A DNA stretch of 64,000 bases, taken from NCBI RefSeq assembly GCF_000972785.3, contig NZ_CP011253.3:1426001-1490000 (forward strand), read 5' to 3'. The stretch's first letter is position 1, and each line of letters begins with the position of its first letter. The position numbers were made by a program, and so were the translations under genes. Below the pieces are notes generated by a model that made no database searches, was not told the DNA's origin, and worked only from the letters and a program-made list of their open reading frames with translations. The DNA is from Pandoraea oxalativorans (GTDB lineage Bacteria > Pseudomonadota > Gammaproteobacteria > Burkholderiales > Burkholderiaceae). Below are positions 40,848 to 62,327 of this stretch, one piece after another.

Positions 40848-40848
40848 G

Positions 40849-41751
40849 ATGGGGGCGACCAGCGCGCTGCAACCCCTGCGGCCAGCGGACGGCGACACGG
40901 GCCTTGCGTCGTTCCCGGCACCCGGAGACGCCAACGTTGCCCCGATCCCCGACGACATCCCTGGCGAGCGTGTTCTTGAAGTGCGCGCGCTCGATATCGA
41001 GTTTCGTACGCGTGGCCGCCACGTCGCGGGTGTGAACGACATATCGTTCGATGTCTATGACGCCGACCGCCTCGTGCTTCTCGGGCCGTCGGGCTGTGGC
41101 AAATCGACGTTGCTCAAGGCCATCGGCGGTTTCGTCAGGCCGACGCGCGGTGAGATCGTGCTGGACGGGCGATCCGTCGCCAAGCCGGGCATCGACCGGA
41201 TGGTGGTCTTTCAGGAGTTCGACCAACTCGCGCCGTGGAAGACGGTGGCGCAGAACGTGATGTTTCCGTTGCGCGTCGGCAAAGGGCTTTCGCGTCGCGA
41301 AGCGCGCGAGCTTGCCCTCGATACTTTGGACAAAGTCGGACTCTCCCGATTTGCCGACGCATTTCCGCACACGCTCTCAGGCGGGATGAAGCAGCGCGTC
41401 GCGATTGCTCGCGCATTGGCGGTGCGACCACGCGTGTTGCTCATGGACGAACCTTTCGCCGCCCTCGACGCGCTAACCCGTACACGCATGCAGGAAGAGC
41501 TACTGCGCTTGTGGGAAGACACGCGTGTCACGCTCCTGTTCGTGACGCATTCGATAGAAGAAGCGCTTGTCGTCGGCACCCGGATCGTGCTGCTCGACGG
41601 TCAGCCGGGCCGTCTGCGTGCCGAACTCGACGCCGGAACGTTCGGGCTCGACGAGGTGGCATCTCCCGACTTCCGGCGTGCGAGTGCACGTATTCACGAT
41701 CTGCTCTTCGGCGAACAATCGCCGTCACGAAGCACGGGAGAGACGGCATGA
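40849..41751 (+). CDS. ABC ATPase, SsuB/TauB type
   Basis: A 300-aa ATPase with Walker A LLGPSGCGKSTLLKA, signature LSGGMKQRVAIARAL and Walker B VLLMDEPFAALD. About 40 residues before the ATPase core are extra and look disordered. The ATG begins one base after the binding-protein stop. The stop overlaps the permease start (ATGA). Confidence 0.92.
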   Translation: MGATSALQPLRPADGDTGLASFPAPGDANVAPIPDDIPGERVLEVRALDIEFRTRGRHVAGVNDISFDVYDADRLVLLGPSGCGKSTLLKAIGGFVRPTRGEIVLDGRSVAKPGIDRMVVFQEFDQLAPWKTVAQNVMFPLRVGKGLSRREARELALDTLDKVGLSRFADAFPHTLSGGMKQRVAIARALAVRPRVLLMDEPFAALDALTRTRMQEELLRLWEDTRVTLLFVTHSIEEALVVGTRIVLLDGQPGRLRAELDAGTFGLDEVASPDFRRASARIHDLLFGEQSPSRSTGETA

Positions 41752-44767: not shown

Positions 44768-47700
44768 GTGGTCTCACGCAAACTCAGGCGAGCTTCGCGC
44801 CGTGCCCAAAAGGCGCAGTTCCCATCGACCATAGCGTCGGCAACGCCTGGCATGCACGACGTGTCTGCGTCGTTGGCCAGACGTCCTTTGGGTATGCGAA
44901 TGGTTCGGACGGCTGGCAGTGCGGCGGTCGCATTGGCGCTCGCCGGGACCACGCCCGCGCTATGGGCTGCCGGGGCATGCAGCACCGGTGACATTCGCGG
45001 CTGCGGCGCACCGGGAGGCGATGGCGCCTCGGTGCGAGGCGGGGCAGGCGGCGTGGGCAATGGCCAGGGCGGCGGTTCGAGCACGCTGGATGCCAACGGC
45101 GTGACGGTGTTGGTTCCCGGCGCCTGGGGACTACAGGGGACAGGCGGTACTGGCGCGTCCGGCGATGGTGGTCCGGCGTCGCCGGGGTCCCCGGCAACTG
45201 TCATCTTCTCCGACGGCATATCGATCAATCTCCCGACGAGCGGGCTCGACGGCAGCACCGGCCCCGACGGCACCAACTTCGCCACCGGCGGCAACGGCGG
45301 AAACACCGGTCTCTACTATGCTGGCCGCGACATCTACGTGACGGCGACGATCATCGGCGGTGCAGGTGGCCAGGGGGGCAACGCCGTCGGTGGCGTAGGC
45401 AATGGCGGCGGTGGTGGTGGCGGCGGGGCGGGGATGATGGCTTTCGCGGGATCGGCGTCGATCAACAATTCGGGGACGATTACCGGAGGGGCTGGCGGTG
45501 TCGGCGGTTCCGGGGCCTTTAGCGGTGGCGGGGGCGGTGGCGGCGACGGGTTGCTCGTACTCGGCGGACGCGACAGCATCACAAACATCGGTACGATCAC
45601 GGGCGGTGTCGGAGGCAGCGCCGGTACCGCGACTGTCACTGCCGGCACGGGGGGCAGTGGCGGCATCGGCGTCAATCTCGCGGGTACAGGCAACACGCTC
45701 GCCAACCTGGGAACCATCTCGGGCGGCGCCGGTTTGACCGGCGGTGTCGGCGTACGTACGCGCGGGAACGACGCCATCGTCAATAATGGCGTCATCATGG
45801 GCGGGATGAATAACGGTGGCACGACGCGCGCCGCGGCCATCGAGTTCGGTGGCCTGAACAACGCGCTGACACTGCTATCCGGCTCGCTGATGCTCGGCGA
45901 TCTGCTATTCGACGCAGGCGCGAGTGCCACCATCGGCGCTCTCAATTCCGGGCTGACGCTGAACAATGCCATCGTTCTGAGTGACGACACGTCGAACGTG
46001 ATTTTCTCGACCGCAACATCCGGTTTGACGGTATCCGGCGTTGTGTCGGGCGCAGGCAAACTGACGCTCGGTGGCATCAACTCGAATGCCCTGACGGTGA
46101 CGTCGGTCAATACGTACACCGGCGCGACGACGATCGACAGCGGCACGTTAGCCCTGTCAGGCAACGCAAGCATTGCGGCATCTTCAGGGGTGACGGTGAC
46201 CGGTGTGGGCGGCGTGGGCGGCGTGTTCGATATTTCGGGCGTGACGGCTGGCACATCGATCAAAGCGCTTTCCGGCGGCGGCGCCGTGCGACTCGGCGGC
46301 CAGACGCTCTCGCTCACCAACGCGGCCTCGGCATTCGATGGCGTCATCGACGGCACCGGTGGCGTACACCTGGTCGGCGGCACGCAGACGCTCACCGGCG
46401 TGAATACCTACTCCGGCGCGACGACCATCGATAACGGCGCGGTGTTGACCCTGACCGGCAGCGGAAGTGTTGCGTCGTCGAGCGGGGTGGCGAATAACGG
46501 CACCCTCGACATTTCCGCAACAACGAATGGCGCCTCACTCACGGCCCTCACAGGACTCGGGACGGTCTCGCTCGGGGGGCGCACGCTGACGCTGACGCAG
46601 GCGACGGGCGTCTTCTCGGGCACGATCGCCGGTACCGGGGGCCTGACGCTGAACGGCGGCACGCAGACGCTCGCGGGTGCGAACACCTACACCGGTGCGA
46701 CGACAATCAATGGGGGCACGCTCACGCTTATCGCTGGCGGACGGTTGTCGTCGGCGACCACAGTGACGCTGGTCGGCAGTGGCGCTACGTTCGATGCCTC
46801 CGCCGCAGGCGCGCTCACCGTCTCGGGCTTGTCAGGTGATGCGGGCACGCGCTTCGCCGTTGGCACGAGCACGCTGACGGTCGATGCTGCGAGCGACGCC
46901 ACCTATGCCGGTGACCTCACGGGCAGTGGGAGTTTCGTCAAACAAGGCACCGGCATGCTGGTGCTCGATGGGACAAGTATCGCTTTTACCGGCACGACCA
47001 CGGTTGCGGGGGGCACGCTCGAGATCGGCGACGCCGCGCACGAGCGCGCGGTGCAGGGCGGCGACGTCTCGGTCGGTTCGCAGGGCACATTGCGCGGGCA
47101 CGGCACGATCCTCGGCAGTGTGACCAATGGCGGCATCGTGGCGCCGGGCGGGTCCATCGGTACGTTGAGCGTCGCCGGAAACTACACGCAAGCGTCGAAC
47201 GCTACGCTGGCGATCGAGGTCAGCCCAACGGCGGCGTCGTTGCTCAAGGTGTCGGGCAGCGCGACATTGAACGGCGTGCTGGCGATTACCTATGACCCGG
47301 GCACCTATCGGTCGACGCGGTACACCGTGCTGAGCGCGGCTAACGGTGTAAGCGGGCGATTTTCCTCGGTAACCGAAGCGGTGTCGGCCGGTGCCGATCT
47401 TGGCAATCTGCGCTCCGCCGTGAGCTACGGCGCAAACGACGTGACGCTCGCGCTCAACGATCCGGCATCTGGCGAGCCGGGCGCTTCCGATCCGTCGGGG
47501 GCCGTGGTCGTTGCGCCGAAGAACACGAGCGTTTTCACTGCCCTGGGCACGGCAGCGGTGATGAACGCCCAGTCAACGACGGCAGCGGTACTCGACCAGG
47601 CCACGAGGCGGTCCGTCGGGACGGGGCTGTCGACTGGCGATGTAGCCGCTGACGGCCCCACGGTCTGGGCGAGCGCCACAGGACTTCACGGGCGTTTGTC

Positions 47701-48469
47701 GGGTACAGACGGTCAGCCTGGGTTTCAGGAAAACCGCTACGGCTTCCTCGCAGGCGCGCACAAGCGCATGGGGGACAACACCGTCGGGTTGGCAGGCGGT
47801 TATTCCCACGCCGATCTCTCCGAGGCTGGCACGGCGAACTCAGGCACGATCGACACCCTGCGGCTGGCCGCCTATGCAAGTCGCGAGATCGGTCCGGTCG
47901 ATGTTGCGGCATCGGTAGGTTACGGCCTGGATTTCATGTCACAGAAGCGTCCGTTCGCGGGCATCGGCACGGCGCAAGGCGATCATATCGGACAGGAGTT
48001 CACGGCAGCAGCACAGGCGAGCGCGCCGTTGTCGGTCGCCGGGGTGGCGGTCACGCCGCGTATCGGCTTGCGCTACGCCTACTTCCACGCCAACGGCTTC
48101 GACGAAAGCGGGGCGGGCGGGCAGAATCTGCGTGTTGGGACAGACAATGCGCGCAGCCTTCAGCCGTTCGTGGGCGTAACGTTCGACAAGGCGTTCGGCG
48201 AGGCGTGGCGACCGATGCATGTGCAGTTTCGCGCAGCCTATGCCCACGAATTGCTCGATGCCGGACGGGCCATCACCGTGGCCTCGCAGGACGGCACGAT
48301 TTTCGTGGCCCCCGGCACGCGCCTGGCGCGCGGCTATCTGACGCTTGGCGCGAGCTTTGGCGTGACGCTCGCGAAGCATCTGGACGTCTCGCTCGCCTAC
48401 GATGCGCTCGTCAACACCGCCCGCGCATCGGCGCAGGCGGGCAGCCTGAAGGTGAGCTACCGGTTCTGA
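44768..48469 (+). CDS. Large autotransporter with Gly-rich passenger
   Basis: A 1233-aa type V secreted surface protein. A long leader with a basic N-region ends in a signal peptide, VALALAGTTPALWAAG. The passenger starts with a very Gly-rich segment (about residues 75-340) with repeats such as NSGTITGGAGG, NIGTITGGVGG and NLGTISGGAG. Passenger-associated repeats follow: YTGATTIDSGTLAL, YSGATTIDNGAVLTL, YTGATTINGGTLTL, FTGTTTVAGGTLEI. The C-terminal barrel (about 965-1233) ends in VSYRF, a canonical BAM signal. The GTG at 44768 is assumed; an ATG at 44900 is also possible. It is probably an adhesin or biofilm factor. Confidence 0.88.
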   Translation: MVSRKLRRASRRAQKAQFPSTIASATPGMHDVSASLARRPLGMRMVRTAGSAAVALALAGTTPALWAAGACSTGDIRGCGAPGGDGASVRGGAGGVGNGQGGGSSTLDANGVTVLVPGAWGLQGTGGTGASGDGGPASPGSPATVIFSDGISINLPTSGLDGSTGPDGTNFATGGNGGNTGLYYAGRDIYVTATIIGGAGGQGGNAVGGVGNGGGGGGGGAGMMAFAGSASINNSGTITGGAGGVGGSGAFSGGGGGGGDGLLVLGGRDSITNIGTITGGVGGSAGTATVTAGTGGSGGIGVNLAGTGNTLANLGTISGGAGLTGGVGVRTRGNDAIVNNGVIMGGMNNGGTTRAAAIEFGGLNNALTLLSGSLMLGDLLFDAGASATIGALNSGLTLNNAIVLSDDTSNVIFSTATSGLTVSGVVSGAGKLTLGGINSNALTVTSVNTYTGATTIDSGTLALSGNASIAASSGVTVTGVGGVGGVFDISGVTAGTSIKALSGGGAVRLGGQTLSLTNAASAFDGVIDGTGGVHLVGGTQTLTGVNTYSGATTIDNGAVLTLTGSGSVASSSGVANNGTLDISATTNGASLTALTGLGTVSLGGRTLTLTQATGVFSGTIAGTGGLTLNGGTQTLAGANTYTGATTINGGTLTLIAGGRLSSATTVTLVGSGATFDASAAGALTVSGLSGDAGTRFAVGTSTLTVDAASDATYAGDLTGSGSFVKQGTGMLVLDGTSIAFTGTTTVAGGTLEIGDAAHERAVQGGDVSVGSQGTLRGHGTILGSVTNGGIVAPGGSIGTLSVAGNYTQASNATLAIEVSPTAASLLKVSGSATLNGVLAITYDPGTYRSTRYTVLSAANGVSGRFSSVTEAVSAGADLGNLRSAVSYGANDVTLALNDPASGEPGASDPSGAVVVAPKNTSVFTALGTAAVMNAQSTTAAVLDQATRRSVGTGLSTGDVAADGPTVWASATGLHGRLSGTDGQPGFQENRYGFLAGAHKRMGDNTVGLAGGYSHADLSEAGTANSGTIDTLRLAAYASREIGPVDVAASVGYGLDFMSQKRPFAGIGTAQGDHIGQEFTAAAQASAPLSVAGVAVTPRIGLRYAYFHANGFDESGAGGQNLRVGTDNARSLQPFVGVTFDKAFGEAWRPMHVQFRAAYAHELLDAGRAITVASQDGTIFVAPGTRLARGYLTLGASFGVTLAKHLDVSLAYDALVNTARASAQAGSLKVSYRF

Positions 48470-48667: not shown

Positions 48668-49690
48668 ATGAAAACGAGCATTTTGAAGCGCTGGCTGGTC
48701 GTCGCCTTGTCGGCGATTGCCACGCTGGGCACGGGCGCTGCACATTCGCAGGAATTGCCTGCTGAAGTTCGTCTCGCATGGGCCGGTGCGCCCCGAGTCT
48801 GGGTGCTTGCGCGCGCCGACAAATCGTTCGACAAGGCATTTGGCGTGCCCGTGCGCTGGGTGCAATTCGCCAGCGGCGCCGACGTCATCTCGCTGTTCGC
48901 CGCGAACGCCATCGATATCGCACGCTTCGGTTCCAGCCCGGCGGTGGCCGGCATCACGCAGCGCCTGCCCATCGAGGTCATCGGCATTCCGGAAGTGATC
49001 GCCACGAGCGAGCGGCTCACGGTGCGCCAGAACATTGCGAGCCTGAAGGACATCGAAGGCAAGACGATTGCCTATCCGCCGAACTCGACGGCGCAGTATG
49101 CGCTGGAAGCGGCCATCAAGGTCTACAAGCTCGATCGCTCGAAGATCAAACTCGTACCGCTCAGTCCGAATGAGATCGTCGCTGCGTGGAAACGTGGGGA
49201 CATCGACGGCGCCTACGCATGGGACCCGGCCAGCCAGCAACTGACGGCCAACGGCGGACATGAAATCTTCTTCACGAAAGATCTGCAAAAAGACGGCTAC
49301 CTGATCTACAACAACTTCGTCGTGCGCAAGGCGTTTGCCGAAAAGTATCCGCAGATCGTGACCGCGTTCCTTAAGACCTATCAGCAGAAGGTCGACGAGT
49401 ATCAGAAAGATCCGGAAGCCGCTGCGCAAATCATCTCGAAGAACATCGAGCAGCCGATCGAGTCCGTGCGCCGTACGCTCGCGGGGCTGACCTACCCCTC
49501 GGTCAAGGAGCAGGTGTCCGCCGCTTATCTCGGTAATGGCGCGTCGACGCGCGGCTAGGGGATCGATCGGGCGATGGTCGATACGGCCAAATTCCTTGCC
49601 GGTGCCGGCCAGTTGCGCGCGGACACGATTCCCGCCACGTACTCGAACAATATCGATTCGAGCTTCCTCGCGCGTGCGTCTGCCCAGTAG
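48668..49690 (+). pseudogene. TauA-like sulfonate/taurine binding protein with in-frame amber stop
   Basis: The gene starts with a signal peptide (MKTSILKRWLVVALSAIATL...) and encodes a TauA-type binding protein (AGAPRVWVLARADKSFDKAFG; YAWDPASQQLTANGG). Codon 297 is TAG at 49556-49558. The same frame then continues for 43 codons with the expected TauA C-terminal helix (IDRAMVDTAKFLAGAGQLRA) to TAG at 49688-49690, 30 bases before the permease. A single-base nonsense change in a formerly 340-aa protein is the simplest reading. The 296-aa product may be non-functional; a base-call error is also possible. Confidence 0.85.
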
Positions 49691-49720: not shown

Positions 49721-50494
49721 ATGAAATACGCTTATCGTTTGGCGATCGGTGCCACGGCGGTGCTAAGTGTGCTGGTCTTCTGGCAACTCGGCGCCGTCGT
49801 CGGCTGGACAGATCCCGTTTTCCTGCCGTCTCCCGTTGAACTGGTGCGCACCACACTCGACCTCGCCAGTCACGGTTATCAGCAAATATCCCTGTGGCAT
49901 CACATCGGCGTGAGTCTGCTGCGGGCACTCTCGGCGTTCGCTGCGTCGATTGTCATCGGGGTACCGCTCGGGCTGCTCATGGGGCTCACCCCCGCGCTGA
50001 GCGCAGCGCTCGACCCGTTCGTCCAGTTCCTGCGCCCTTTGCCGAAGATCGCCCTGATTCCGCTCACGGTGGTGTGGTTCGGCATTGGCGAATCGTCGAA
50101 GTTCTTCCTGATCTTCATTTCGTGCTTTCTTAGTGTGGTGGTGGGCGCCGCCGCGGCAGTGGGCAGCGTGAGCCGCGCCCGGATGCTCGCCGGGCAGACG
50201 CTGGGGGCCAGTCGCTATCAGATATTCCGGCATGTGGTTCTGCCCAACGCGTTGCCCGAGATATTCACGTCCGTCCGATTGTCGATCGGTATCGGCTGGA
50301 CATCGCTCATTGCCGCCGAACTCGTCGCGGCCTCCTCCGGACTGGGGTGGATGGTGATGAACTCCGGCACCTATCTGCGAACGGATGTCGTCATGGTCGG
50401 CATTCTGCTGCTCGGCGTGATCGGGTATCTGCTCGATTACGCCATCGTGATCGCGCAGCGCGTGACGGTGCCGTGGGCGGGGAGGGAAGCATGA
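49721..50494 (+). CDS. ABC permease, TauC/SsuC type
   Basis: A 257-aa permease with six helices and EAA loop AGQTLGASRYQIFRHVVLPN. PLPKIALIPLTVVWFGIGESS is the typical family segment. Its stop overlaps the ATPase start (ATGA). Confidence 0.93.
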   Translation: MKYAYRLAIGATAVLSVLVFWQLGAVVGWTDPVFLPSPVELVRTTLDLASHGYQQISLWHHIGVSLLRALSAFAASIVIGVPLGLLMGLTPALSAALDPFVQFLRPLPKIALIPLTVVWFGIGESSKFFLIFISCFLSVVVGAAAAVGSVSRARMLAGQTLGASRYQIFRHVVLPNALPEIFTSVRLSIGIGWTSLIAAELVAASSGLGWMVMNSGTYLRTDVVMVGILLLGVIGYLLDYAIVIAQRVTVPWAGREA

Positions 50495-51309
50495 ATCGCA
50501 CTCATGAGGTTACGCCGCGCGTTCACCTGAGCCACGTCAGCCGCACGTTTTCACCGGCGTCTCGCGGCCAGCCGCCGTTTCAGGCGCTGGGAGACGTTTC
50601 GCTGGAACTGTGGCCCGGGGAGTTCGTGTGCCTGCTGGGACCGTCAGGTTGCGGGAAGTCCACCATCCTCAATCTGATCGCCGGTTTCGACCGGCCCGAT
50701 GCCGGGGTGGTGAGCATCGATGCAAAGCCTGTGATGCAACCCGGGCCGGACCGGGGCTTCGTTTTTCAGCAGCCCACGCTATTTCCCTGGCTGAACGTGC
50801 TGGATAACGTCACCTTCGGTCCGCGCATGGCCGGTGTGCCGAAGGCGCAGTATCTCGACGACGCATACCGCTATCTTGCCCTCGTCGGGCTCAAGGGCTT
50901 CGAGCACCACGCCACGTGGCAGTTATCGGGCGGAATGCGCCAACGGGCGGCCCTTGCCCGGGCGTGGTTGCCGAATCCCGGCATTCTCCTGATGGACGAG
51001 CCGTTCGGCGCGCTCGACGCGCAAACGCGTCTGACGATGCAGGAACTGCTGACGTCGGTATGGGCCGCGACCGGGACCACGATTCTCTTTGTGACGCACG
51101 ACGTCGACGAAGCGTTGCTGCTTGCCGACCGCGTGCTCATCATGTCCGCTCGTCCGGGCCGCATTCGCGAGCACTTGCATGTGCCGTTCGAACGCCCGCG
51201 CGATATCGAGGATCTCGCCGACGACCCGGAGTTCGGACGCTTGCGCCGACACGTATTGCACATCATCCGGGACGAGGCGCATCGCCATGCCGGTCAGGAG
51301 TTGTCATGA
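50491..51309 (+). CDS. ABC ATPase, TauB/SsuB type
   Basis: A 272-aa ATPase with Walker A LLGPSGCGKSTILNL, signature LSGGMRQRAALARAW and Walker B ILLMDEPFGALD. The ATG at 50491 has GGAGGGAAGC upstream. Its stop overlaps the ATG of the PLP-enzyme gene, so all genes from the permease to 52784 are translationally chained. Confidence 0.93.
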   Translation: MNRTHEVTPRVHLSHVSRTFSPASRGQPPFQALGDVSLELWPGEFVCLLGPSGCGKSTILNLIAGFDRPDAGVVSIDAKPVMQPGPDRGFVFQQPTLFPWLNVLDNVTFGPRMAGVPKAQYLDDAYRYLALVGLKGFEHHATWQLSGGMRQRAALARAWLPNPGILLMDEPFGALDAQTRLTMQELLTSVWAATGTTILFVTHDVDEALLLADRVLIMSARPGRIREHLHVPFERPRDIEDLADDPEFGRLRRHVLHIIRDEAHRHAGQELS

Positions 51310-52784
51310 GTCTTTTTCGCTTCGATTGGTATGGCCAACTGCGCGCCAGCGCGCCCGAATTGCTCGACAACGCGGCCAGACTCTCCTCGACACTGGGTAT
51401 TCCAGACGAGTTGCGAGGCCGCTTCGGCATTTCCGGGAGTAATTCCAGCGCACCGGGCGTGCTACGTGCAGCGGTGCGCGAGGCGATCGTCGAGAGCTCG
51501 GCAGACTACTTCCCGCTCAACCGTATCGGCGACGAGATTCGGCGCGTCGTGAAGTCGGTCTACGGCGACGACTTCGATGCTGCCCCGATCAACAGCGCCG
51601 AAGCGGGCCTGGCGGTCGTGCATGACGCGCTCATCGCGCCTTCGCTGATCGGGCGTGGCGATCCGCCGCGCGCCCGCACAATCGTGCCGTATGAGCGGCA
51701 CATCGAGCACCACGGCAGCTACGGTCGCCCGGTGCCCGGCATCTACAAGGACATTTTTGCCGACCGGGGCGCCACGGCCGGCGAGTTGGGGCTGTCAGGG
51801 CGTCGGGCGGAGAACGTCGATACCGTCTTCGTGAAACTGCCCGGTGCGCGCTACGACGTGCATGGCATCAAGTCTTACGTGTGTCCTCTGCTCGTTCACG
51901 TCAATCCCGAGGCCTCGTTGCATGCCCTTGAGCACGCGGCAACGGTTCACGCGGCGGACCTCGCCGGGTTTGCAACCCTCGGCTACGACACGCCGGGCTG
52001 CGGCTATGGCGCCAAGGACGAGCATGGCGTGTCGCGTCTGCATCGCGCCTTTGGCGCGCTCGCCGCGCGCTTCGGCGTTCCCTATATTGCCGACAACGCA
52101 TGGGGTACGCCGTTTCTGGGCACCGACCCGCGCCGGATCGGCGCGCACGTGATGATTTACAGCACGGACAAGGTCATGGGGGGACCGACCGGCGGACTGA
52201 TCATCGGCAAGGAAGACGTGATGATCAACGTGCGCCGCGCGCTCGGGTTGCATTCGGAGCGCTTCGGCAGCGTTTCGTCGCACGGCAAGGGATCGCATAT
52301 CGCGTTCGATCCGGGCAAGGAGGCGCTCGTTGGCACGCTGGCTGCCCTGCGCCTGTTGCGCGACGATCCCGAGCCCATCGTGGCCGCAGTGGATGCGACG
52401 TGGGAAATCGTGCTCGACGAATTTGCGCGCGCGAAGGGCCGCCTTAAACCCGGCATCTTGCTCACACGCTCGCAAAACGCGGGCGGGGTCGAGATCAATT
52501 ATCAGGACACATGGCGCAACGGCGAGTTCGGCATTCCGATCTTCTCTCACGAGGATCGTATTGCGCAGACGAACCTTTTCAATAACGCGCTTGTGAGAGC
52601 CGGGGTCACGCCGAATATCGCAGACGACGCCAATATCTTCATCACGCCGGGCGCAGGCACGCTGGACGAGACCGGCAAGGTGCGGGAAGACCGGTTGCGG
52701 CTTGCCGTTCGAGCCGTTTTCGAGACGCTCATCCTCCTGCAGCAACTGAGCGAGCGAATCGAAGCGCAAGCGCCAAAGGACTGA
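51306..52784 (+). CDS. Fold-type I PLP enzyme of unassigned subfamily
   Basis: The product is 492 aa. The likely PLP Lys is K289 in MIYSTDKVMGGPTGGLI; ADNAWGTPFLGTDP upstream supplies the Asp that contacts the pyridine ring. The layout recalls aminotransferase class V/SelA/SepCysS-like enzymes, but I cannot place it in a named family. It is coupled by a 4-base overlap to a TauB-type ATPase gene, which points to processing of an imported, possibly sulfur-containing, amino compound, for example C-S cleavage or transamination. That role is inference. Confidence 0.8.
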   Translation: MSLFRFDWYGQLRASAPELLDNAARLSSTLGIPDELRGRFGISGSNSSAPGVLRAAVREAIVESSADYFPLNRIGDEIRRVVKSVYGDDFDAAPINSAEAGLAVVHDALIAPSLIGRGDPPRARTIVPYERHIEHHGSYGRPVPGIYKDIFADRGATAGELGLSGRRAENVDTVFVKLPGARYDVHGIKSYVCPLLVHVNPEASLHALEHAATVHAADLAGFATLGYDTPGCGYGAKDEHGVSRLHRAFGALAARFGVPYIADNAWGTPFLGTDPRRIGAHVMIYSTDKVMGGPTGGLIIGKEDVMINVRRALGLHSERFGSVSSHGKGSHIAFDPGKEALVGTLAALRLLRDDPEPIVAAVDATWEIVLDEFARAKGRLKPGILLTRSQNAGGVEINYQDTWRNGEFGIPIFSHEDRIAQTNLFNNALVRAGVTPNIADDANIFITPGAGTLDETGKVREDRLRLAVRAVFETLILLQQLSERIEAQAPKD

Positions 52785-53277: not shown

Positions 53278-54081
53278 ATGAAGTTGTCCCGATTCTTGAT
53301 TGTTCCGTTTGCCGTGTTTGCGATGGTCGGCGCCCATGCTGCGGACAAGTTGCGCATCGGCGTTATGGCCGGTGCCTATGGCGACTCGATTGCCGTCGCT
53401 GCGAAAGAAGCCAAGAAGCAGGGAATCGATGTCGACGTCGTCGAGTTCACGGACTGGACCACGCCGAATATCGCAGTCGATGCCGGAGATCTGGATATCA
53501 ATTATTTCCAGCACCAACCGTTCCTCGACAACGCTATCCAGAAAAACGGTTTCAAGCTTGCCAGTGCGGGCACCGGCATTCTGGCCAACGTGGGGTTGTA
53601 TTCGCTCAAGCACAAATCGGTAACCGATGTGCCGCAACGCGGAACGGTGGGTATCGCTAACGATCCCGTCAATCAGGGCCGTGGCCTGTTGCTCCTGCAA
53701 AAGGTCGGACTGATCAAGCTCAAGAGCGGCGTCGGTTTTCTCGGTTCGCTAAACGACATCGTCGACAACCCCAAGAAGCTTCGTTTCGTCGAAGTTGAAG
53801 GACCGCAACTTGTGCGTATCACCGGCGATGTCGACATCGCGCAGGGCTATCCCCACTTCATTGTTTCCGCCAAGGCTTTCGATCCGTCGAGCGGACTGGC
53901 GTACTCGGGGATCGAAGACTCGCGCTTCGCCATTCAATTCGTGGTCAAGGCAAATCGCACTCAGGATCCGGTGGTGCAGAAGTTCATTCGCATCTACCAG
54001 AACTCGGATGCTGTGAAGACGGCCGTTCTCCATGCCTTCAACGACGACAAGCGTCTATACACGCTGGCGTGGGTGAAATGA
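53278..54081 (+). CDS. MetQ/NlpA-family binding protein
   Basis: A 267-aa binding protein with signal peptide ending GAHAA and no lipobox Cys, so it is probably a soluble periplasmic protein, unlike E. coli MetQ. Family features are [38 protein letters not shown] and PNDP-like [21 protein letters not shown] lies 7 bases upstream of the ATG. With MetN- and MetI-type genes downstream it forms a complete importer; given the sfn neighbours, the ligand may be an organosulfur compound other than methionine. Confidence 0.9.
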
Positions 54082-54112
54082 CGAGGCGTGCCCTAACGAA
54101 AGGAGCATCCGC

Positions 54113-55300
54113 ATGGGCGTAAATGTCACAGCACGGCAGGCGCTGGCAGGGCAGGGGAGCGCCGCAGCGATCACAAGGGGTCGGCCCGTGTCCGGCGTCG
54201 CAGACCCTGCGCCAACCCAGGCGTCGCAGACCGCGAAGGGGACGGTAGCGTTTCGCGCGCTCACCAAGACTTACGTCTCGTCGGCCGGGGAGGTCAAAGC
54301 GCTGAATGCCATCAGCCTCGAGATCGCTCCCGGGAGCATCTTCGGGATCATCGGGCGCAGTGGCGCGGGTAAGTCGAGTCTGCTGCGCACGATCAATCGG
54401 ATAGAGCGGCCCACGAGCGGGCAGGTGCTGGTCGATGGCGTCGACATCGCAACCTTGAGCGAGGCGGAACTCGTGGGGTTGCGTCGGCGCGTCGGCATGA
54501 TTTTCCAGCACTTCAATCTGCTCTCGGCGAAGACGGTGTTCGAGAACATTGCGTTGCCGCTGAGAGTCGCCGGTGTGCCCAGAGCACAGATCGACGCGCG
54601 GGTGCGGGAACTGCTCGAACTCGTGGGATTGACCGACAAGGCGCAAACGTATCCGAGGCGTCTGTCCGGCGGGCAGAAGCAACGCGTGGGCATTGCCCGC
54701 GCGCTGGCGACGGGCCCCGAAATTCTGCTGTGCGACGAAGCGACATCGGCGCTCGACCCCGAAACGACGCAGGCGATTCTGCGTTTGCTGCGCGACATCA
54801 ACCGACAGCTAGGCATCACGGTGATCCTCATTACGCATGAAATGAGCGTGATTCGGGAAATCGCCGATCGGGTCTTGGTGCTGGAGCAGGGCCGCATCGC
54901 AGAGTTGGGCGAGGTCTGGCAGGTATTCGGTTCGCCCCGGCACGATGCGACGCGTGCGCTGCTGGCCCCGCTGCAGCACGATTTGCCGGACGATCTGACG
55001 GCCGCGCTCACTGCCGAGCGCCCCGAACTTCCACACGCGCAAGTCGTGCAACTGGACTATCGCGGTCTCGACGGCCTGGAGCCGGATCTCGCGCGGATAT
55101 CCCAAGTGCTTGGCGGCGACGTCCGACTGGTGCACGGCGGCATCGATCGCATTCAGGGACACGCACAAGGCCAGTTGCTGCTCGCCCTCAAGGGCGCGGA
55201 AGTTGCGTCCGATCGGACATCACTGACGCAAGGGCCGCAGGCCATTGCTCACGATATCAAGGTACTCGGTTATGTCGTTGACACTGTCCATCTCCGCTGA
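54113..55300 (+). CDS. MetN-family ABC ATPase
   Basis: A 395-aa ATPase. After about 45 non-conserved residues come Walker [14 protein letters not shown], signature [15 protein letters not shown] and Walker [15 protein letters not shown]. The C-terminal NIL domain (about residues 315-395), which in MetN binds methionine and shuts the transporter, is present. AAAGGAG precedes the ATG. It overlaps the permease gene by 29 bases. Confidence 0.92.
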
Positions 55301-55934
55301 TCGCTACTGGAACGCGCTCCTCGATACGCTGATGATGGTCGGCGTATCCGGGGCGATCGCTTTCGTTGCAGGGATTCCGCTTGCAGTGCTGCTGATCGTC
55401 ACGGCACCCGGGGGATTTCTTGCGTGGCCACGCGTGAACCGATTGGTCGGCAGCGTCATCAACGGGTTTCGCGCCACGCCGTTCATCGTTCTGTTGGTCG
55501 CGCTGATTCCGTTTACGCGTTTCGTCGCCGGTACGACCATCGGGGTATGGGCTGCCATCGTGCCGCTGGCGATCAGCGCCACGCCGTTTTTTGCGCGCAT
55601 CGTAGAAGTCAGTCTTCGCGAAGTCGATCCCGGACTGATCGAGGCGGCGCAGGCCATGGGGTGCAAGAAGTGGCACATCGTGCGTCACGTCTACCTGCCC
55701 GAAGCGCTCCCCGGCGTGATCGGCGGATTCACGATTACGCTGGTCGCCCTGATCAGTGCCTCGGCGATGGCGGGTGCTGTCGGCGCGGGCGGTCTCGGCG
55801 ACCTTGCAATTCGCTATGGCTATCAACGGTTCGACACGCAGGTCATGCTGATCGTGATTGCTGCGCTGATCGTGCTCGTGACGATGGTACAGGCCATCGG
55901 TGACCGGTACGTTCACTGGCTACGCAGTCGCTGA
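55272..55934 (+). CDS. MetI-family ABC permease
   Basis: A 221-aa permease with five to six helices and EAA loop [40 protein letters not shown] is a typical MetI segment. The ATG at 55272 gives [13 protein letters not shown]. It completes the MetNIQ-type importer, and the first SfnB gene starts 50 bases later. Confidence 0.92.
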
Positions 55935-55984: not shown

Positions 55985-57289
55985 ATGACGATTCCGCAGG
56001 CGAAGGGGGGGAATTTGTCCGTCGAACAGACGACTGCCACCTCGGCCGCCAGGGCAGAAGAGACCCGCATCCTGACACGCCAGCCGTTGCCGCCACGCCC
56101 CGTGCCGCGCATTGCGAGCGAGCGCGAAGCCCTGAACATTGCCAGCACGCTGGCTGAGTCGTTTCGTGAAGGTGCCGCGCAGCGCGACCGCGAACGTCGG
56201 CTTCCGTGGGACGAAATCGAGCAATACAGCGCAAGCGGCCTGTGGGCGATCACGGTCCCCAGGGCTTACGGCGGCTTGGGCGCGTCCTTTGAAACGTTGG
56301 CGCAGCTTTTCGTGACGATCTGCGCAGCGGATCCTTCACTTGGGCAGATTCCGCAGAACCACTTTGCGGTACTGCAAAACCTGAAAGATATGGGGAGCGA
56401 GTCGCAAAGGCAGCGATGGTTCGCCGATGTACTGGGCGGCCATCGTATCGGTAACGCAGGCCCGGAACGAAAAGCGAAGGCCGCCCGCGTCTCCGCCGCG
56501 ACGGCCCGGGTGGCGCGCGATCCGGACGGCACGTTGCGCGTCAGTGGAACGCGGTTCTACTCGACGGGCTCGGCGTTTGCGCACTGGATTCCGTTTCGCG
56601 CGGTCGACGATCGGGCGCAGGCGGTTCAGGTCTGGGTACGGCGCGACGCACCGGGCGTCACGATTCTGGATGACTGGGACGCTTTCGGCCAGCGCACCAC
56701 GGCCAGCGGTAGCGTGATTTTCGAGCAGGTCGAAGTCGGCGAGGACGATGTGGTGCCTTTGTGGCGTTTCGCAGCGGTGCCCACGTTGTCGGGCCCCGTC
56801 TCGCAATTGATACAAGCCGCCATCGATGCCGGTATCGCGCAAGGTGCACTGCGCGATGCGCTCGACTTCGTGCGAGAACGAAGCCGACCGTGGATCGATT
56901 CCGGTGTGGCCAACGCGTGCGACGACCCGTACATCATTCACGAGATCGGTCAGTTGCAGATCGAGGTGGACGCCGCGCATGCCGTGCTGCTCGAAGCGGC
57001 GCGCTATCTGGATGAACTGGCGGGTCAACCGGTCGACGAAGCGCTGAGCGCCCGCGCGTCTGTCGCGGTGGCGGAAGCCAAGATACTGACGACGGAAGCC
57101 GCACTCAACAGCAGCGAACATCTGTTCGCGCTGGCAGGATCGTCCGCCAGCCGCAGCCAATACGGTCTCGATCGTCATTGGCGCAACGCCCGCGTGCACA
57201 CGCTGCACGACCCGGTGCGCTGGAAGTATCACCTGCTGGGTAACTATGTCCTGAATGGCGTGCTTCCGCAGCGCCATCAATGGAACTGA
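55985..57289 (+). CDS. SfnB-family sulfur acquisition oxidoreductase, copy 1
   Basis: A 434-aa flavoprotein with the acyl-CoA dehydrogenase fold. SGLWAITVPRAYGGLGA and IPQNHFAVLQNL match the SfnB group, induced in sulfur starvation and linked to dimethyl sulfone use in Pseudomonas. The first 35 residues are extra. It shares the C-terminal THDPVRWKYH...GNYVLNGV-like ending with the next gene, a tandem paralogue. A role in oxygenating sulfur compounds with reduced flavin is inferred from the DszC/SfnB family. Confidence 0.9.
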   Translation: MTIPQAKGGNLSVEQTTATSAARAEETRILTRQPLPPRPVPRIASEREALNIASTLAESFREGAAQRDRERRLPWDEIEQYSASGLWAITVPRAYGGLGASFETLAQLFVTICAADPSLGQIPQNHFAVLQNLKDMGSESQRQRWFADVLGGHRIGNAGPERKAKAARVSAATARVARDPDGTLRVSGTRFYSTGSAFAHWIPFRAVDDRAQAVQVWVRRDAPGVTILDDWDAFGQRTTASGSVIFEQVEVGEDDVVPLWRFAAVPTLSGPVSQLIQAAIDAGIAQGALRDALDFVRERSRPWIDSGVANACDDPYIIHEIGQLQIEVDAAHAVLLEAARYLDELAGQPVDEALSARASVAVAEAKILTTEAALNSSEHLFALAGSSASRSQYGLDRHWRNARVHTLHDPVRWKYHLLGNYVLNGVLPQRHQWN

Positions 57290-57307
57290 AGGTCCCTCGG
57301 AATCCGT

Positions 57308-58582
57308 ATGACAAACGCATCGACTTTGACACACACTTTCGTCGCCGCTCAGCCACCTCGGCCACCTCAGCCCGCACCCGCACCTGCGTCACGAACGTCC
57401 GTTCCTGTGATTCGAGACGTCCGGCAGGCACTGGACGTCGCTCGCCAGTTTGCTCGTGAGATCGCCGCCGGTGCCCAGGCGCGCGACGAGGCACGAGTAT
57501 TGCCATGGCGCGAGGTGGAGCAGTTCAGTCAAAGCGGCCTGTGGGGAATCACGGTGCCGCGCGAGTACGGTGGCGCAGGCGTGGACACCGGAACGCTGAC
57601 GCAGGCTATCGGCCTGATCGCTGCGGCCGACGGCAATTTCGGACACATTCCGCAGAATCACTATTACGCGCTTGAGGTGTTGCGCGTAGGCGGAACTCAC
57701 GAGCAAAAGACGTTCTTTTACGACCGGGTGCTGCGCGGCGAACGACTGGGCAATGCGCTCGCCGAAATCGGTCACCGGGATTTCAAACGGCGAACCCAAT
57801 TGGTTCGCGAGCCGGGTGGCTGGTTCGTTGAGGGGGAGAAGTTTTATTGCACTGGCGCCGTCTACGCGCATTGGATTCCCACCCTGGCCATTGCGCAGGA
57901 ACAGGAGCAGCCACGCGCCTATCTCGTCTTCGTGCCGCGAAATGCGCCCGGTGTGAGCGTGACCGACGATTGGGACGGCTTCGGTCAGCGCCTCACGGGC
58001 AGCGGCTCCGTTCAGTTCCACCGCGTGCGTGTGGAACCGGAATGGGTCGTGCCGTTCACCGCGTCGTTCGAGCGACCGACAACCATCGGCCCCTTTGCAC
58101 AGATCATCCACGCCGCATTGGACGCCGGCATCGGTCACGGCGCACTACAGGCCATGCTGCCATTCATTCGCGAGCGCGCCCGACCGTGGATCGACTCGGG
58201 GGTCGATAGCGCCTCGCAGGATCCGCTGTTGCTCGAACAGGTCGGCAACGTGCATCTGCGCTTGCGTGCGGCGGATGCCCTGATCGCCCGTGCGGCCCTT
58301 ACCGTCGACGCGGCACAGCGGGACTCGAACGAGGCAAGCGTGGCAGCGGCCTCGGTCGCCGTGGAACAGGCCAAGGCGCTGAGCACCAGCGCGAGCCTGT
58401 TGGCCGGAACGAAGCTCTTCGAGCTTGCGGGTACCGGCGCTACGCTCGCAGGCCAGGGCTACGACCGTTTCTGGCGCAACGCCCGCACGCATACGTTGCA
58501 TGACCCGGTCCGATGGAAATACCACGCCGTGGGCAACTATGTCCTCAACGGCGTGCGACCACCGCGACACGGGGCGATCTGA
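57308..58582 (+). CDS. sfnB: SfnB-family sulfur acquisition oxidoreductase, copy 2
   Basis: A 424-aa paralogue of the preceding protein: SGLWGITVPREYGGAGVD, IPQNHYYALEVLRVGG and the ending HTLHDPVRWKYHAVGNYVLN line up throughout. The gene starts 18 bases after copy 1. The N-terminal Pro/Ala-rich stretch is specific to it. The two probably arose by tandem duplication and may have different substrates, or may form hetero-oligomers. Confidence 0.9.
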   Translation: MTNASTLTHTFVAAQPPRPPQPAPAPASRTSVPVIRDVRQALDVARQFAREIAAGAQARDEARVLPWREVEQFSQSGLWGITVPREYGGAGVDTGTLTQAIGLIAAADGNFGHIPQNHYYALEVLRVGGTHEQKTFFYDRVLRGERLGNALAEIGHRDFKRRTQLVREPGGWFVEGEKFYCTGAVYAHWIPTLAIAQEQEQPRAYLVFVPRNAPGVSVTDDWDGFGQRLTGSGSVQFHRVRVEPEWVVPFTASFERPTTIGPFAQIIHAALDAGIGHGALQAMLPFIRERARPWIDSGVDSASQDPLLLEQVGNVHLRLRAADALIARAALTVDAAQRDSNEASVAAASVAVEQAKALSTSASLLAGTKLFELAGTGATLAGQGYDRFWRNARTHTLHDPVRWKYHAVGNYVLNGVRPPRHGAI

Positions 58583-58596
58583 CGCGCAGACCCTTT

Positions 58597-59973
58597 ATGA
58601 CACAGACAAAACGACACATCCACGTCAATGCGTTCAACATGAATTGCGTGGGGCACATTCATCACGGACTCTGGACACATCCGCGAGATCGCTCCAGCGA
58701 ATACGGCACGTTGCGGTATTGGACGGACATCGCGCAAATTCTGGAGCGTGGCCTGTTCGACGGCATTTTCATCGCGGACGTGATCGGCTACTACGACGTG
58801 TACCAGGGGGGCGTGGACCTGACCCTGCGCGAGGGAATACAACTGCCTGTCAACAACCCCTGGCTGATCGTGTCGGCGATGGCGGCCGTGACGCAGCATC
58901 TCGGCTTCGGTCTGACCGCGATGGTCGGGGCACACCATCCCTATACCTTTGCTCGCGACGTCTCGACCCTGGATCAACTGACCAACGGACGCATCGGGTG
59001 GAACATCGTGACCGGATATGTGGACAGCGGCGTCCGGGGACTTGGGCAGGATGGACTGGCGGAGCATGACAGCCGTTACGACCGTGCAGAGGACTTTCTT
59101 GAGCTGACGTACAAGCTATGGGAGGGGAGCTGGGACGACGGGGCTGTCGTGGCGGACAGGGCCCGACGTGTCCATACGTTGCCCGACACGGTTCGCGCAG
59201 TGGTGCACGACGGCCCCTTCTATCGCACCAACGCGATTCATATGAGCGCACCCTCACCGCAACGCACGCCCGTGCTGTTTCAGGCGGGGACCTCGTCACG
59301 AGGGCTGCGTTTCGCCGGCAAGCACGCGGAGGGTGTCTTCATCGGTGCGGCGTCGCCCGAAGCCGCGCGTGTGGCATCGCGCAACCTCCGCGCGGCAGCG
59401 GTCGCGGCCGGGCGCGCGCCGGGCGACATCAAGATATTCGCCGGTGTCGCCGTGGTCGTCGGCAAGACGCAGGCCGAGGCGCAAGAAAAGTACGCTGAGT
59501 ATCTGACGCATGCGAGCGCCGAGAGCGGACTCGCGCATTTTGCCGCCAGCACCGGCGTGGACTTTGCCAGATACGGTCTCGACGACCCGATTCCGTACGG
59601 TACCGGCAACGCGATTCAGTCCGCGACCCAAACGGCCCGGCAACAAGGCTGGACCACGCGACGCAAACTGCTCGATCAGTTTGCACTGGGCAGCCGATAT
59701 CACACCATCGTCGGGGATGCGGCTCACGTAGCCGACGAGCTCGAAAGATGGATCGACGAGGGGGAGATCGACGGGTTCAACCTGACCCGTATCGTCGTGC
59801 CCGAAACCTGGCAAGACTTTGCGGACCTCGTCGTCCCCGAGCTACAGAACCGTGGCCGATACCGCACTCACTATGACACCGGCACCCTGCGCCATCGGCT
59901 GTTCGGGCGCGGCGACCGCCTCCCCGCGCAACATGCCGCAGCAAGTTATCGCCGCACCGAGGAGACCGCATGA
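58597..59973 (+). CDS. NtaA/SnaA/DszA-family FMN-dependent monooxygenase
   Basis: A 458-aa luciferase-like monooxygenase. Signatures include MTQTKRHIHVNAFNMNCVGH, YWTDIAQILERGLFDGIFIAD, DVSTLDQLTNGRIGWNIVTG and VLFQAGTSSRGLRFAGKHAE. The ATG at 58597 gives the family N-terminus. These enzymes use FMNH2 from a separate reductase to cleave C-N or C-S bonds (nitrilotriacetate, dibenzothiophene sulfone, S-alkyl cysteines). No reductase gene is in the window. It overlaps the next gene by four bases. Confidence 0.92.
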   Translation: MTQTKRHIHVNAFNMNCVGHIHHGLWTHPRDRSSEYGTLRYWTDIAQILERGLFDGIFIADVIGYYDVYQGGVDLTLREGIQLPVNNPWLIVSAMAAVTQHLGFGLTAMVGAHHPYTFARDVSTLDQLTNGRIGWNIVTGYVDSGVRGLGQDGLAEHDSRYDRAEDFLELTYKLWEGSWDDGAVVADRARRVHTLPDTVRAVVHDGPFYRTNAIHMSAPSPQRTPVLFQAGTSSRGLRFAGKHAEGVFIGAASPEAARVASRNLRAAAVAAGRAPGDIKIFAGVAVVVGKTQAEAQEKYAEYLTHASAESGLAHFAASTGVDFARYGLDDPIPYGTGNAIQSATQTARQQGWTTRRKLLDQFALGSRYHTIVGDAAHVADELERWIDEGEIDGFNLTRIVVPETWQDFADLVVPELQNRGRYRTHYDTGTLRHRLFGRGDRLPAQHAAASYRRTEETA

Positions 59974-61157
59974 TGGGGCCATCGTCCTCTGCACATCGCC
60001 AGGACAGTGCCGCACAAGCTGGCGCACTCGCAAGTCAATTTGCACAAACCGCGGCAACACGCGACGCCTCGGGAGGCACGCCTAAGGCAGAGCGAGACGC
60101 CCTGCGCAGCAGTGGCCTGCTGGCGCTCTCCATTCCTCAGGATTACGGCGGCAGGGGAGCGGGTTGGAGCGAGACGCTGGATACCGTGCGGATCTTCGCG
60201 CAGACCGACAGCTCGATCGCGCACGTGTACGGTTTCCATCACCTGCAATTGGCGACCGTGCAGTTGTTCTCGCAACCCGCTCAGTGGGAGCCGTGGATCG
60301 AACAGACGGCCAGCAAACAGTGGTTCTGGGGAAATGCCCTCAATCCGCTTGACGAGCGCACCACGGTGCGTCGCATCGGGGATTGGTTCGAGTTCTCCGG
60401 AAAGAAGAGTTTTTGTTCGGGGGCGCTGGACTCGGAAATGCTGCTGGCGTCGGGCAAGGACGAAGTGAGCGGACGGTTGCTGATCGCCGCGCTTCCTACC
60501 GCGAGAGCGGGCATCACCATCAACAGCGACTGGAACTGCTTCGGGCAGAGACAAACCGACAGCGGAAGCGCGCTTTTCGAGCACGTGCGCGTGGAGGCAG
60601 CGGAGTTGCTGCTTGATCCCGGTCCATTGTCAACGCCGCGCGCTTCGCTTCGTCCGTTGCTGGCGCAACTGGTGTTCGTCCACATGTTCCTGGGGCTCGC
60701 CGAGGGAGCGCTCTCGGAGGCACGGCATTACACCGTCAACGAGGCGAGGCCATGGTTCCGTTCGCCTGCAACGCGTGCTAGCGACGATCCGTACACCTTG
60801 AAACACTACGGCGAGTTCTACGTCGCGCTGGAAGGCACCCGCTTGCTTGCAACGCGCGCCGCCACGCTGTTCGACGACGCATGGCGCAAGGGCGATGCTC
60901 TGAGCACCGAAGATCGAGGGCAGGTGGCGCTCGCCGTGGCGGTCGCCAAGGTCGCCGCCTCACGTGCAGGACTCGATGTGGCGAGTCGCGTCTTCGAGAC
61001 GACCGGCGCACGGGCGACACACGGCGCGCTAAGGCTGGATCGATATTGGCGAAACTTGCGGGTGCAGACGCTGCACGACCCGGTCGATTACAAGCTTCAG
61101 GACATCGGTAACTGGGTCGTCAATGCTCAGTCGCCGGTACCGTCCTTCTATTCCTGA
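59970..61157 (+). CDS. DszC-like acyl-CoA-dehydrogenase-fold monooxygenase
   Basis: A 395-aa flavoprotein. LALSIPQDYGGRGAGW and TDSSIAHVYGFHHLQLATVQ are typical of the dibenzothiophene monooxygenase (DszC) branch, distinct from the two SfnB copies. It starts in an ATGA overlap with the DszA-family gene, so a two-step oxygenation of one sulfur substrate (sulfoxidation, then C-S cleavage) is a sensible hypothesis, as in the 4S pathway. The substrate is not known. Confidence 0.88.
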   Translation: MMGPSSSAHRQDSAAQAGALASQFAQTAATRDASGGTPKAERDALRSSGLLALSIPQDYGGRGAGWSETLDTVRIFAQTDSSIAHVYGFHHLQLATVQLFSQPAQWEPWIEQTASKQWFWGNALNPLDERTTVRRIGDWFEFSGKKSFCSGALDSEMLLASGKDEVSGRLLIAALPTARAGITINSDWNCFGQRQTDSGSALFEHVRVEAAELLLDPGPLSTPRASLRPLLAQLVFVHMFLGLAEGALSEARHYTVNEARPWFRSPATRASDDPYTLKHYGEFYVALEGTRLLATRAATLFDDAWRKGDALSTEDRGQVALAVAVAKVAASRAGLDVASRVFETTGARATHGALRLDRYWRNLRVQTLHDPVDYKLQDIGNWVVNAQSPVPSFYS

Positions 61158-61169
61158 GGCGACACAGAC

Positions 61170-62327
61170 ATGGGAACCCATCCGGTCTGGCCATCTGCGC
61201 CAAGGGCGGTCGATAGCGCGCCAGGCGCAGGGGCTAATGACTGGATCTTCGCCGATCCGCGTTCGCAGGCATTGCTCGCCGATATCGAGCAGATCGCGCC
61301 GAGTGACGCGAGCATTCTGATCTCCGGCGAAACGGGAACGGGCAAGGCATTGATCGCGCGCCACATTCACGATCGTAGTCTGCGACGTGACGGTCCGTTC
61401 GTCGTCGTGAGTTGCGGCGCGTTTTCCGAGTCGCTGGTCGACGCAGAACTGTTCGGCTACGAGAGCGGTGCGTTCGCCGGCGCGTTCGGCGCCCAGCAAG
61501 GCTGGTTCGAAGAGGCCAATGGCGGCACCATCTTTCTCGACGAAATCAACGACCTGGCGTTGCCCGTACAGAACAAGTTACTGCGTGTGCTTCAGACGCG
61601 TGAAGTGATACGTCTGGGCGGACGCAAGCCGATTCCCGTCGATTTGCGTATTCTCGCCGCCACCTCCGTCGATCTCGAACAACTCGTTGCGGATAAGCGT
61701 TTTCGCAAGGACTTGTATTACCGCCTGAATGTCGTCGGCCTGAACGTGCTCACGCTCAGGGAGCGGCCGGGAGACATTGTGCCGCTCGCCCGCTATTTCA
61801 TCGACGCTTACAGTCGGCGTCTTGGCTACCCTCAATTGGCGTTGACGCCAGACGCCGAGCAACGACTGATACAGGCGCCCTGGCATGGCAATGTGCGCGA
61901 GTTGGAGAACGTCATTCATCGCTCGTTGCTCAGATGCGAGCGCAGTCAGATCGACGCGGAGTGTCTGCGCTTGCCCTTACCCTTACCCGCACCATGCGAG
62001 GTGTCTGCATCGATTCCGGACACCGTGGCCGCACCCGCCGTGGCGTCTGCGCCGATCGACGACATGACCGCACTACGCCAGGTCATGCGTCGGCTGTGCA
62101 CGTCGCAGGCCGAAAACCTGCATCAGACCGTAGAAGACACGTTGCTATACGAAGCGTTTCGCTGCAGCAACTACAGCCAGAGCGAGACGTCGCGCTTGCT
62201 CGGCATCAGTCGCAATGTGGTCCGCGCGCGCCTGATTCGACTTGGGGAAATCAGTCCACATCGAAAAGCGCCCGTTGGCATCGACGACGACAACGATAGC
62301 GACATCCACCTTCGCAGAACATCATGA
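61170..62327 (+). CDS. Sigma-54-dependent activator, SfnR type
   Basis: A 385-aa enhancer-binding protein with no N-terminal sensor domain: the AAA+ core starts almost at once, with Walker [15 protein letters not shown] and Walker [12 protein letters not shown], then a C-terminal Fis-type HTH ([19 protein letters not shown]). The sigma-54 contact loop reads GAFAGA (residues 100-105) in place of GAFTGA. This single-domain layout and the sfn neighbours point to SfnR, the activator of organosulfur genes. It is coupled to ssuD by an ATGA overlap. Confidence 0.87.

Follow-up and report, generated by a model that had tools for sequence, protein, structure and literature searches.

The last gene of a TauABC-type importer operon in Pandoraea oxalativorans encodes a fold-type-I PLP enzyme from a real and uncharacterised family, one branch of which has a conserved importer partner. 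We suggest tentatively, at a little less than an even chance, that the enzyme is a β-eliminating lyase that desulfonates an imported α-amino sulfonate, with cysteate as the best guess, and that the operon serves sulfur scavenging. In the window (the whole stretch of 64,000 nucleotides analysed here, from a genome of 6.5 Mb), the gene closes a run of four behind TauA-like, TauC-like and TauB-like genes. The TauB-like gene has an ATGA overlap at each end, with the permease gene on its upstream side and the PLP gene on its downstream side:

48671-49558 (+), gene of a TauA-like periplasmic binding protein, stopping at an in-frame TAG (TIGR01729, 177.7 bits against a cut-off of 304.25)
49559-49690 (+), remainder of the TauA-like gene behind the TAG, same frame, 43 codons and a stop (one TAG in the match)
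49721-50494 (+), TauC-like permease (NF007545, 230 bits, below the cut-off of 342; PF00528)
50491-51309 (+), TauB-like ATPase (NF008421, 258.6 bits, below the cut-off of 357)
51306-52784 (+), PLP enzyme (P0001), 492 aa, fold type I (sequence, profile searches and model)

The sequence-only reading had described this intact ORF as a 492-aa fold-type-I PLP protein with a Lys (Lys289) and an ATG overlapping the stop of the TauB-type gene, and the description is confirmed. The operon is under purifying selection: comparison of the window copy with that of a Pandoraea MAG, whose PLP protein is the closest family member (92% identity), gives a dN/dS of 0.051 for the PLP gene and values of 0.052-0.083 across the transporter genes. 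The TauA-like protein, which aligns with E. coli TauA (6ssy) at 136 bits, is interrupted by the TAG at 49556-49558, and the 43 same-frame codons behind it encode the C-terminus of the binding protein as in the MAG copy. The TAG is either a recent loss or an assembly error; given this truncation, the system could be breaking down in the P. oxalativorans genome. A large Gly-rich, autotransporter-like ORF of 1233 aa (44768-48469, our reading) separates the operon from a LysR-type regulator gene.

The enzyme had also been called unassigned, and profile searches agree: the protein reaches no Pfam or NCBIfam cut-off. Weak similarity extends to DgaE/SelA, Cys/Met-family and class-V PLP enzymes. Among NCBIfam models, the DgaE ammonia-lyase family scores highest (TIGR01437, 31.2 bits against a cut-off of 385.3), and the SelA/DgaE cut-offs were likewise missed (PF03841, 16.6 against 22.8 bits; TIGR00474, 20.9 against 267.9 bits), while SelA/DgaE-like features are present in the form of a fold-type-I domain, the aligned Lys and, 13 residues further on, a Lys or Arg. 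The top PDB profile matches belong to the Cys/Met family (8sf5, 31.7 bits; 8wko, 26.1 bits) and are local, covering about 50 residues of the Asp263-Lys289 region; they are followed by the ammonia-lyase 7lc0 (25.7 bits). An extra N-terminal stretch aligns in order with 7lc0 (6.2 bits) and 8t7j (1.5 bits), insignificant on its own. Kinship to any lyase family is weak, being local and below curated cut-offs; the weak matches are mostly elimination or replacement enzymes.

Cysteine desulfurases (class V, PF00266) have a catalytic persulfide Cys, and the 30-row alignment of the family contains no conserved Cys column (in the columns richest in Cys it reaches 17, 13, 9 and 8 of 30). No dioxygenase or flavin-monooxygenase family of the TauD/SsuD kind matched in Pfam or NCBIfam. 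The cysteate sulfo-lyase CuyA (NF052482) was not among the 18 NCBIfam families found for P0001 at E ≤ 0.1, and neither was the cysteate racemase CuyB (NF052483), seen here as a different protein.

At E ≤ 0.01, Aminotran_5 matches 20 of 30 family members, SelA 15, Met_gamma_lyase 3 and Cys_Met_Meta_PP 2. The AlphaFold2 model (mean pLDDT 85.4, pTM 0.88) has fold type I and, by structural comparison, is roughly equally close to many fold-type-I subfamilies. The Aminotran_5 matches, with PhnW and GABA transaminases sharing the top of the structural comparison with many other enzymes, would suit a transaminase that turns taurine or cysteate into sulfoacetaldehyde or sulfopyruvate, which another enzyme would then desulfonate. 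One locus (L018) does encode a TPP enzyme about 1.2 kb downstream, with PRK08327 as its best match and Xsc models at 142-151 bits against cut-offs of 620-676. However, a non-systematic look at the loci inspected recognised no Xsc, ComDE or SuyAB beside the operon, and the RidA gene next to the PLP gene in Variovorax is more in keeping with an enamine-forming enzyme; we regard a transaminase as improbable.

Conservation was read from a 115-row alignment (113 rows different), in which Lys289, Asp263, His135, Tyr139, Arg141, Arg311, Arg319, Asn391, Glu396, Tyr399 and Trp403 are invariant (115/115). Three positions bear on the chemistry:

52092-52094 (+), codon of Asp263, invariant in 115/115 rows, aligned with the Asp of the Cys/Met-family D-N-T stretch
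52170-52172 (+), codon of Lys289, invariant in 115/115 rows, aligned with the Lys of MJ0158 and of D-glucosaminate-6-P ammonia-lyase
52209-52211 (+), codon of Lys302, Lys in 73 and Arg in 42 of 115 rows

Lys289 would be the Schiff-base lysine and Asp263 the contact to the pyridine nitrogen. By our count on the printed alignment, residue 302 aligns with Arg226 of D-glucosaminate-6-P ammonia-lyase, which is placed near the α-carboxylate in a manually docked model (PMC9529869). Because of this match, an α-amino acid would be mildly favoured over taurine as the substrate.

The family is rare near home. A protein search gave 392 matches at E ≤ 1e-3 among 7998 scored candidates, and a close copy occurs in 2 of 41 genomes, the P. 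oxalativorans genome included. With that genome counted each time, matches at E ≤ 1e-30 occur in 3 of 399 genomes from the order and in 2 of 398 from the phylum; the scan of genome contigs covered the best 80 of 142 relatives. The tree of these proteins (115 rows), built by a quick method with SH-aLRT support only and rooted at its midpoint, splits a 31-row clade of Pseudomonadota and a Methylomirabilota MAG from an 82-row clade that is mainly Bacillota, Ignavibacteriota, Bacteroidota and Atribacterota.

TauACB lies directly upstream of the PLP gene in 7 of 9 distinct clade loci with context, the TauB and PLP matches being 0-49 bp apart; the hosts are Burkholderiales, Azospirillum, a Methylobacteriaceae MAG and a Methylomirabilota MAG. 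In the other two clade loci (L019 and L031), TauABC was not found upstream. The coupling to a TauABC importer proposed from the sequence is thus conserved in this clade, whereas at 72 of the 85 distinct loci the PLP gene has DUF6917 and/or a B12 mutase beside it, with no match to a TauC-like gene. The neighbour survey, meant to show whether homologues ever adjoin TauABC-type genes, accordingly gives a divided answer, with most homologous loci unlinked.

The operon also sits within a sulfur-gene region of the window, which continues downstream of the PLP gene:

53278-55934 (+), second importer, MetQ-, MetN- and MetI-like genes (MetI alone over its cut-off)
55985-58582 (+), two SfnB-family sulfur-acquisition oxidoreductases (TIGR04022, 581.8 and 577 bits, cut-off 430.9)
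58597-59973 (+), NtaA/DmoA-family FMN monooxygenase (TIGR03860, 498.2 bits, cut-off 279.7; start codon our choice)
59970-61157 (+), DszC/SfnB-like flavin oxidoreductase (NF043015, 347.6 bits, below the cut-off of 850)
61170-62327 (+), sigma-54-type activator (no family over cut-off)
62324-63448 (+), SsuD alkanesulfonate monooxygenase (TIGR03565, 577.7 bits, cut-off 518.2)

Elsewhere in the window are more sulfonate/nitrate-type ABC transporter genes (34600-37309 on the minus strand and 39771-41751 on the plus strand, all below equivalog cut-offs) and, by our sequence reading, a RidA-like ORF next to a flavoprotein-like ORF (27418-27855, plus strand).

Other TauABC-linked loci have sulfur neighbours of their own. 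RidA (Rid-family, over cut-off) is directly downstream of the PLP gene in Variovorax, and CuyA (483.9 bits against a cut-off of 450) in the Methylobacteriaceae MAG (L015), each adjacent in 1 of 7 linked loci. An SsuD over its cut-off lies near the operon in Azospirillum, which also holds a second TauABC-like set at 26-46% identity, and the Pandoraea MAG has a rhodanese-like gene nearby (our reading; NCBIfam gave no hit for it). An imported amino-sulfonate as substrate, the earlier suggestion, fits the RidA, CuyA and SsuD/SfnB/TauD-like neighbours as signs of scavenging and is not general to the family. Since such genes accompany TauABC-type operons generally and were counted without a background, they are not evidence independent of the importer. 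The further suggestion of a non-oxygenase route needs qualifying, as oxygenases are not always absent: the window has its SsuD gene about 9.5 kb downstream of the PLP gene, and in Polaromonas a divergent TauD-like gene (239.7 bits, below the cut-off of 313) lies beside the operon. That gene would fit a cysteate decarboxylase making taurine for TauD, but one was seen beside the operon in 1 of 7 loci and no decarboxylase family is among the Pfam hits; we give this role very little credence.

The TauACB-PLP-CuyA operon of L015 raises another option, a PLP-dependent cysteate racemase supplying D-cysteate to CuyA; the L015 genome has no CuyB over the cut-off (best 96.6 against 190), and CuyA is reported to prefer D-cysteate (PMC11382572). 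CuyA is over its cut-off in the genomes of L014 (G016), L015 and L017, but not in the P. oxalativorans genome (35 bits) or those of L016 and L018, and it stays below the cut-off in one Variovorax record searched (312.8 against 450). The curated racemase CuyB is, moreover, an Asp/Glu-racemase protein of a different family, and it adjoins CuyA in the Pandoraea MAG, whose TauACB-PLP lies elsewhere. Because CuyA does not reach its cut-off in several genomes and CuyB belongs to another family, racemization is unlikely as the general role, and we consider it quite improbable for this enzyme too. The P. oxalativorans genome, with no CuyA over the cut-off, contains a CuyB-family match that exceeds its own (G000:C1:3840620-3841297, 216 against 190 bits).

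The partner binding protein may narrow the range of substrates. E. coli TauA (PMC6906117) binds the taurine amine via Glu106, Thr132 and Asp205, and the sulfonate through the Gln30 side chain and the main-chain amides of Gly61, Gly79 and Thr132. We mapped these residues by alignment to E. coli TauA, where an offset of 21 fits the residues named in the paper; the Gln30 position, just before that alignment, was mapped through TauA-like controls. All seven PLP-linked binding proteins keep the equivalents of Glu106 and Thr132, lack Gln at 30, have Asn at 205 and share a PRxW motif unlike most of the 28 controls. Gln30 is kept in 27/28 and Asp205 in 26/28 of these controls, which are mostly from one genus, hence not independent, and are not proven taurine binders. 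A taurine-specific TauA (TIGR01729) was set aside for the window protein on its 177.7 bits and on the loss of Gln30 and Asp205 in 7/7. The pocket, as read from the aligned residues, differs from that of taurine-type TauA. Because Glu and Thr are kept while Asp205 and Gln30 are lost, the ligand probably still has an amine and is probably not taurine; taurine itself is accordingly the less likely member of the amino-sulfonates first proposed. The gain of an Arg and the loss of the Asp would be in keeping with a ligand that has an additional carboxylate, such as cysteate. On the other hand, the absence of Gln30, a sulfonate contact in E. coli TauA, could mean a ligand without a sulfonate.

In the preferred reading, the TauABC-type importer would bring in an α-amino sulfonate, perhaps cysteate, which would form an external aldimine on Lys289 and lose its α-proton; the C-S bond would be cleaved by β-elimination with loss of sulfite. 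The 2-aminoacrylate released would tautomerise and, either spontaneously or through RidA, lose its nitrogen to give pyruvate and ammonia. Sulfite would then enter assimilation. Rid genes are described as clustering with aminoacrylate-forming PLP enzymes (PMC4433059). The fold-type-I enzyme, its conserved importer linkage, the nearby sulfur genes, the binding-protein pocket unlike that of taurine-type TauA and the purifying selection are observed; the lyase chemistry, substrate, sulfite release and RidA step are what we infer. The sequence-only reading remains plausible in a sharpened form, i.e., probably not taurine, perhaps cysteate, and with a lyase favoured, and would cover the TauABC branch only.

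Most of the family lives in another setting. The 72 loci marked by DUF6917, a B12 mutase or both come mostly from anaerobic lineages, and their gene counts are lower bounds, as contig ends often cut loci: at least 67 have DUF6917, 62 a protein of about 83 aa, 59 the B12 mutase, 49 a KamB-like protein, 44 an FAD oxidoreductase, 37 RidA and 24 a permease. The 59 B12-mutase loci are mainly from Bacillota and the Bacteroidota/Ignavibacteriota group. Exemplified by L055:9056-17427 and seen in 58 other loci, not every gene being present everywhere, the cluster holds DUF6917, RidA, the PLP family, the FAD oxidoreductase, the permease, the ~83-aa protein, a 607-aa B12-binding mutase-like protein and a KamB-like reactivase. 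The mutase (L055:15610-17427) belongs with the lysine 5,6-aminomutase superfamily, has its N-terminal B12 domain fused to the barrel, and is without a Lys at the spacing that we take to be that of the KamE PLP-lysine. The cluster probably represents an undescribed amino-acid pathway; no description of it was found in open-licence literature. In L050 and nine other Ignavibacteriota/Bacteroidota loci, a diaminopimelate-dehydrogenase-like gene (PF16654) immediately precedes DUF6917 and the PLP gene, and the FAD oxidoreductase was not found in those ten. The Rokubacteria locus L030 has VorB-type 2-oxoacid oxidoreductase genes and a fused DUF6917-RidA.

Because 72 of 85 loci carry DUF6917 and/or the B12 mutase with no TauC-like gene, a tie to sulfonates does not hold across the whole PLP family. 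This distribution also favours the explanation that the TauABC-type system imports a non-sulfonate and that the enzyme acts on another amino acid, as the DUF6917/B12 relatives presumably do, the sulfur genes being incidental. Gln30 missing from all seven linked binding proteins points the same way, as do TRAP- or TctAB-type transporter genes adjoining the PLP gene in Atribacteria (L093, L089) and Rokubacteria (L030), by our reading. Against it stand the sulfur-gene surroundings of the TauABC clade and the residues that differ between the two clades. TauABC-linked rows have Arg418, Glu134 and His326 in 7/7 and His331 and His415 in 6/7, whereas B12-linked rows have Met418 (59/59), His134 (59/59), Tyr326 (58/59), Tyr331 (56/59) and Ile415 (59/59); these residues may reflect different substrates or only common descent. 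We judge a non-sulfonate import unlikely, though deserving serious attention. A broader proposal, which we regard as rather doubtful, is that these proteins form a new, two-branched family of fold-type-I PLP carbon-heteroatom lyases. The branch in aerobes would carry out a one-enzyme, O2-independent desulfonation of an α-amino sulfonate brought in by its own TauABC-type importer; the other, in mainly anaerobic lineages, would catalyse a step of an undescribed amino-acid degradation with DUF6917, RidA and the fused B12 mutase. One biochemical answer would help annotate both the TauABC-linked and the DUF6917/B12 clusters.

Accounts of sulfur scavenging by TauABC and SsuABC usually pair these importers with an oxygenase, TauD or SsuD. 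The present operon resembles TauABC-TauD and SsuABC-SsuD in joining importer genes to one gene for an intracellular enzyme, but a PLP enzyme replaces the oxygenase and the binding protein is without Gln30 and Asp205 of TauA. Oxygen-independent desulfonating enzymes are already known (Xsc, SuyAB and CuyA); if our reading is correct, what would be new is the pairing, in one operon, of a TauABC-type importer with a PLP enzyme from a novel family. CuyA shares the proposed net reaction (cysteate to pyruvate, ammonia and sulfite), and one locus has both genes, but CuyA matches the D-cysteine desulfhydrase/ACC-deaminase family and the PLP protein does not match NF052482. CuyB also acts on cysteate but is an Asp/Glu-racemase family protein, and the PLP protein does not match NF052483. 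SelA/DgaE proteins share fold type I, with the Lys motif and the Lys/Arg 13 residues later aligned, whereas the PLP protein is far below their cut-offs, has 492 aa against 369 in chain 7lc0, and has other operon partners. O-acetylhomoserine sulfhydrylase and methionine γ-lyase (Cys/Met) are the best PDB profile matches, but only locally, with Cys_Met_Meta_PP in 2/30 members. Cysteine desulfurases and class-V aminotransferases have the same fold and the Aminotran_5 match in 20/30 members, whereas the desulfurase Cys has no conserved counterpart column. In the anaerobe cluster, the likeness is to KamDE/OraSE: the 607-aa partner's B12 domain matches KamE at 70 bits, its barrel stretch matches KamD at E 0.0017, and the KamB-like reactivase scores 209.4 bits, just under the cut-off of 210; the difference is the fusion of the N-terminal B12 domain to the barrel.
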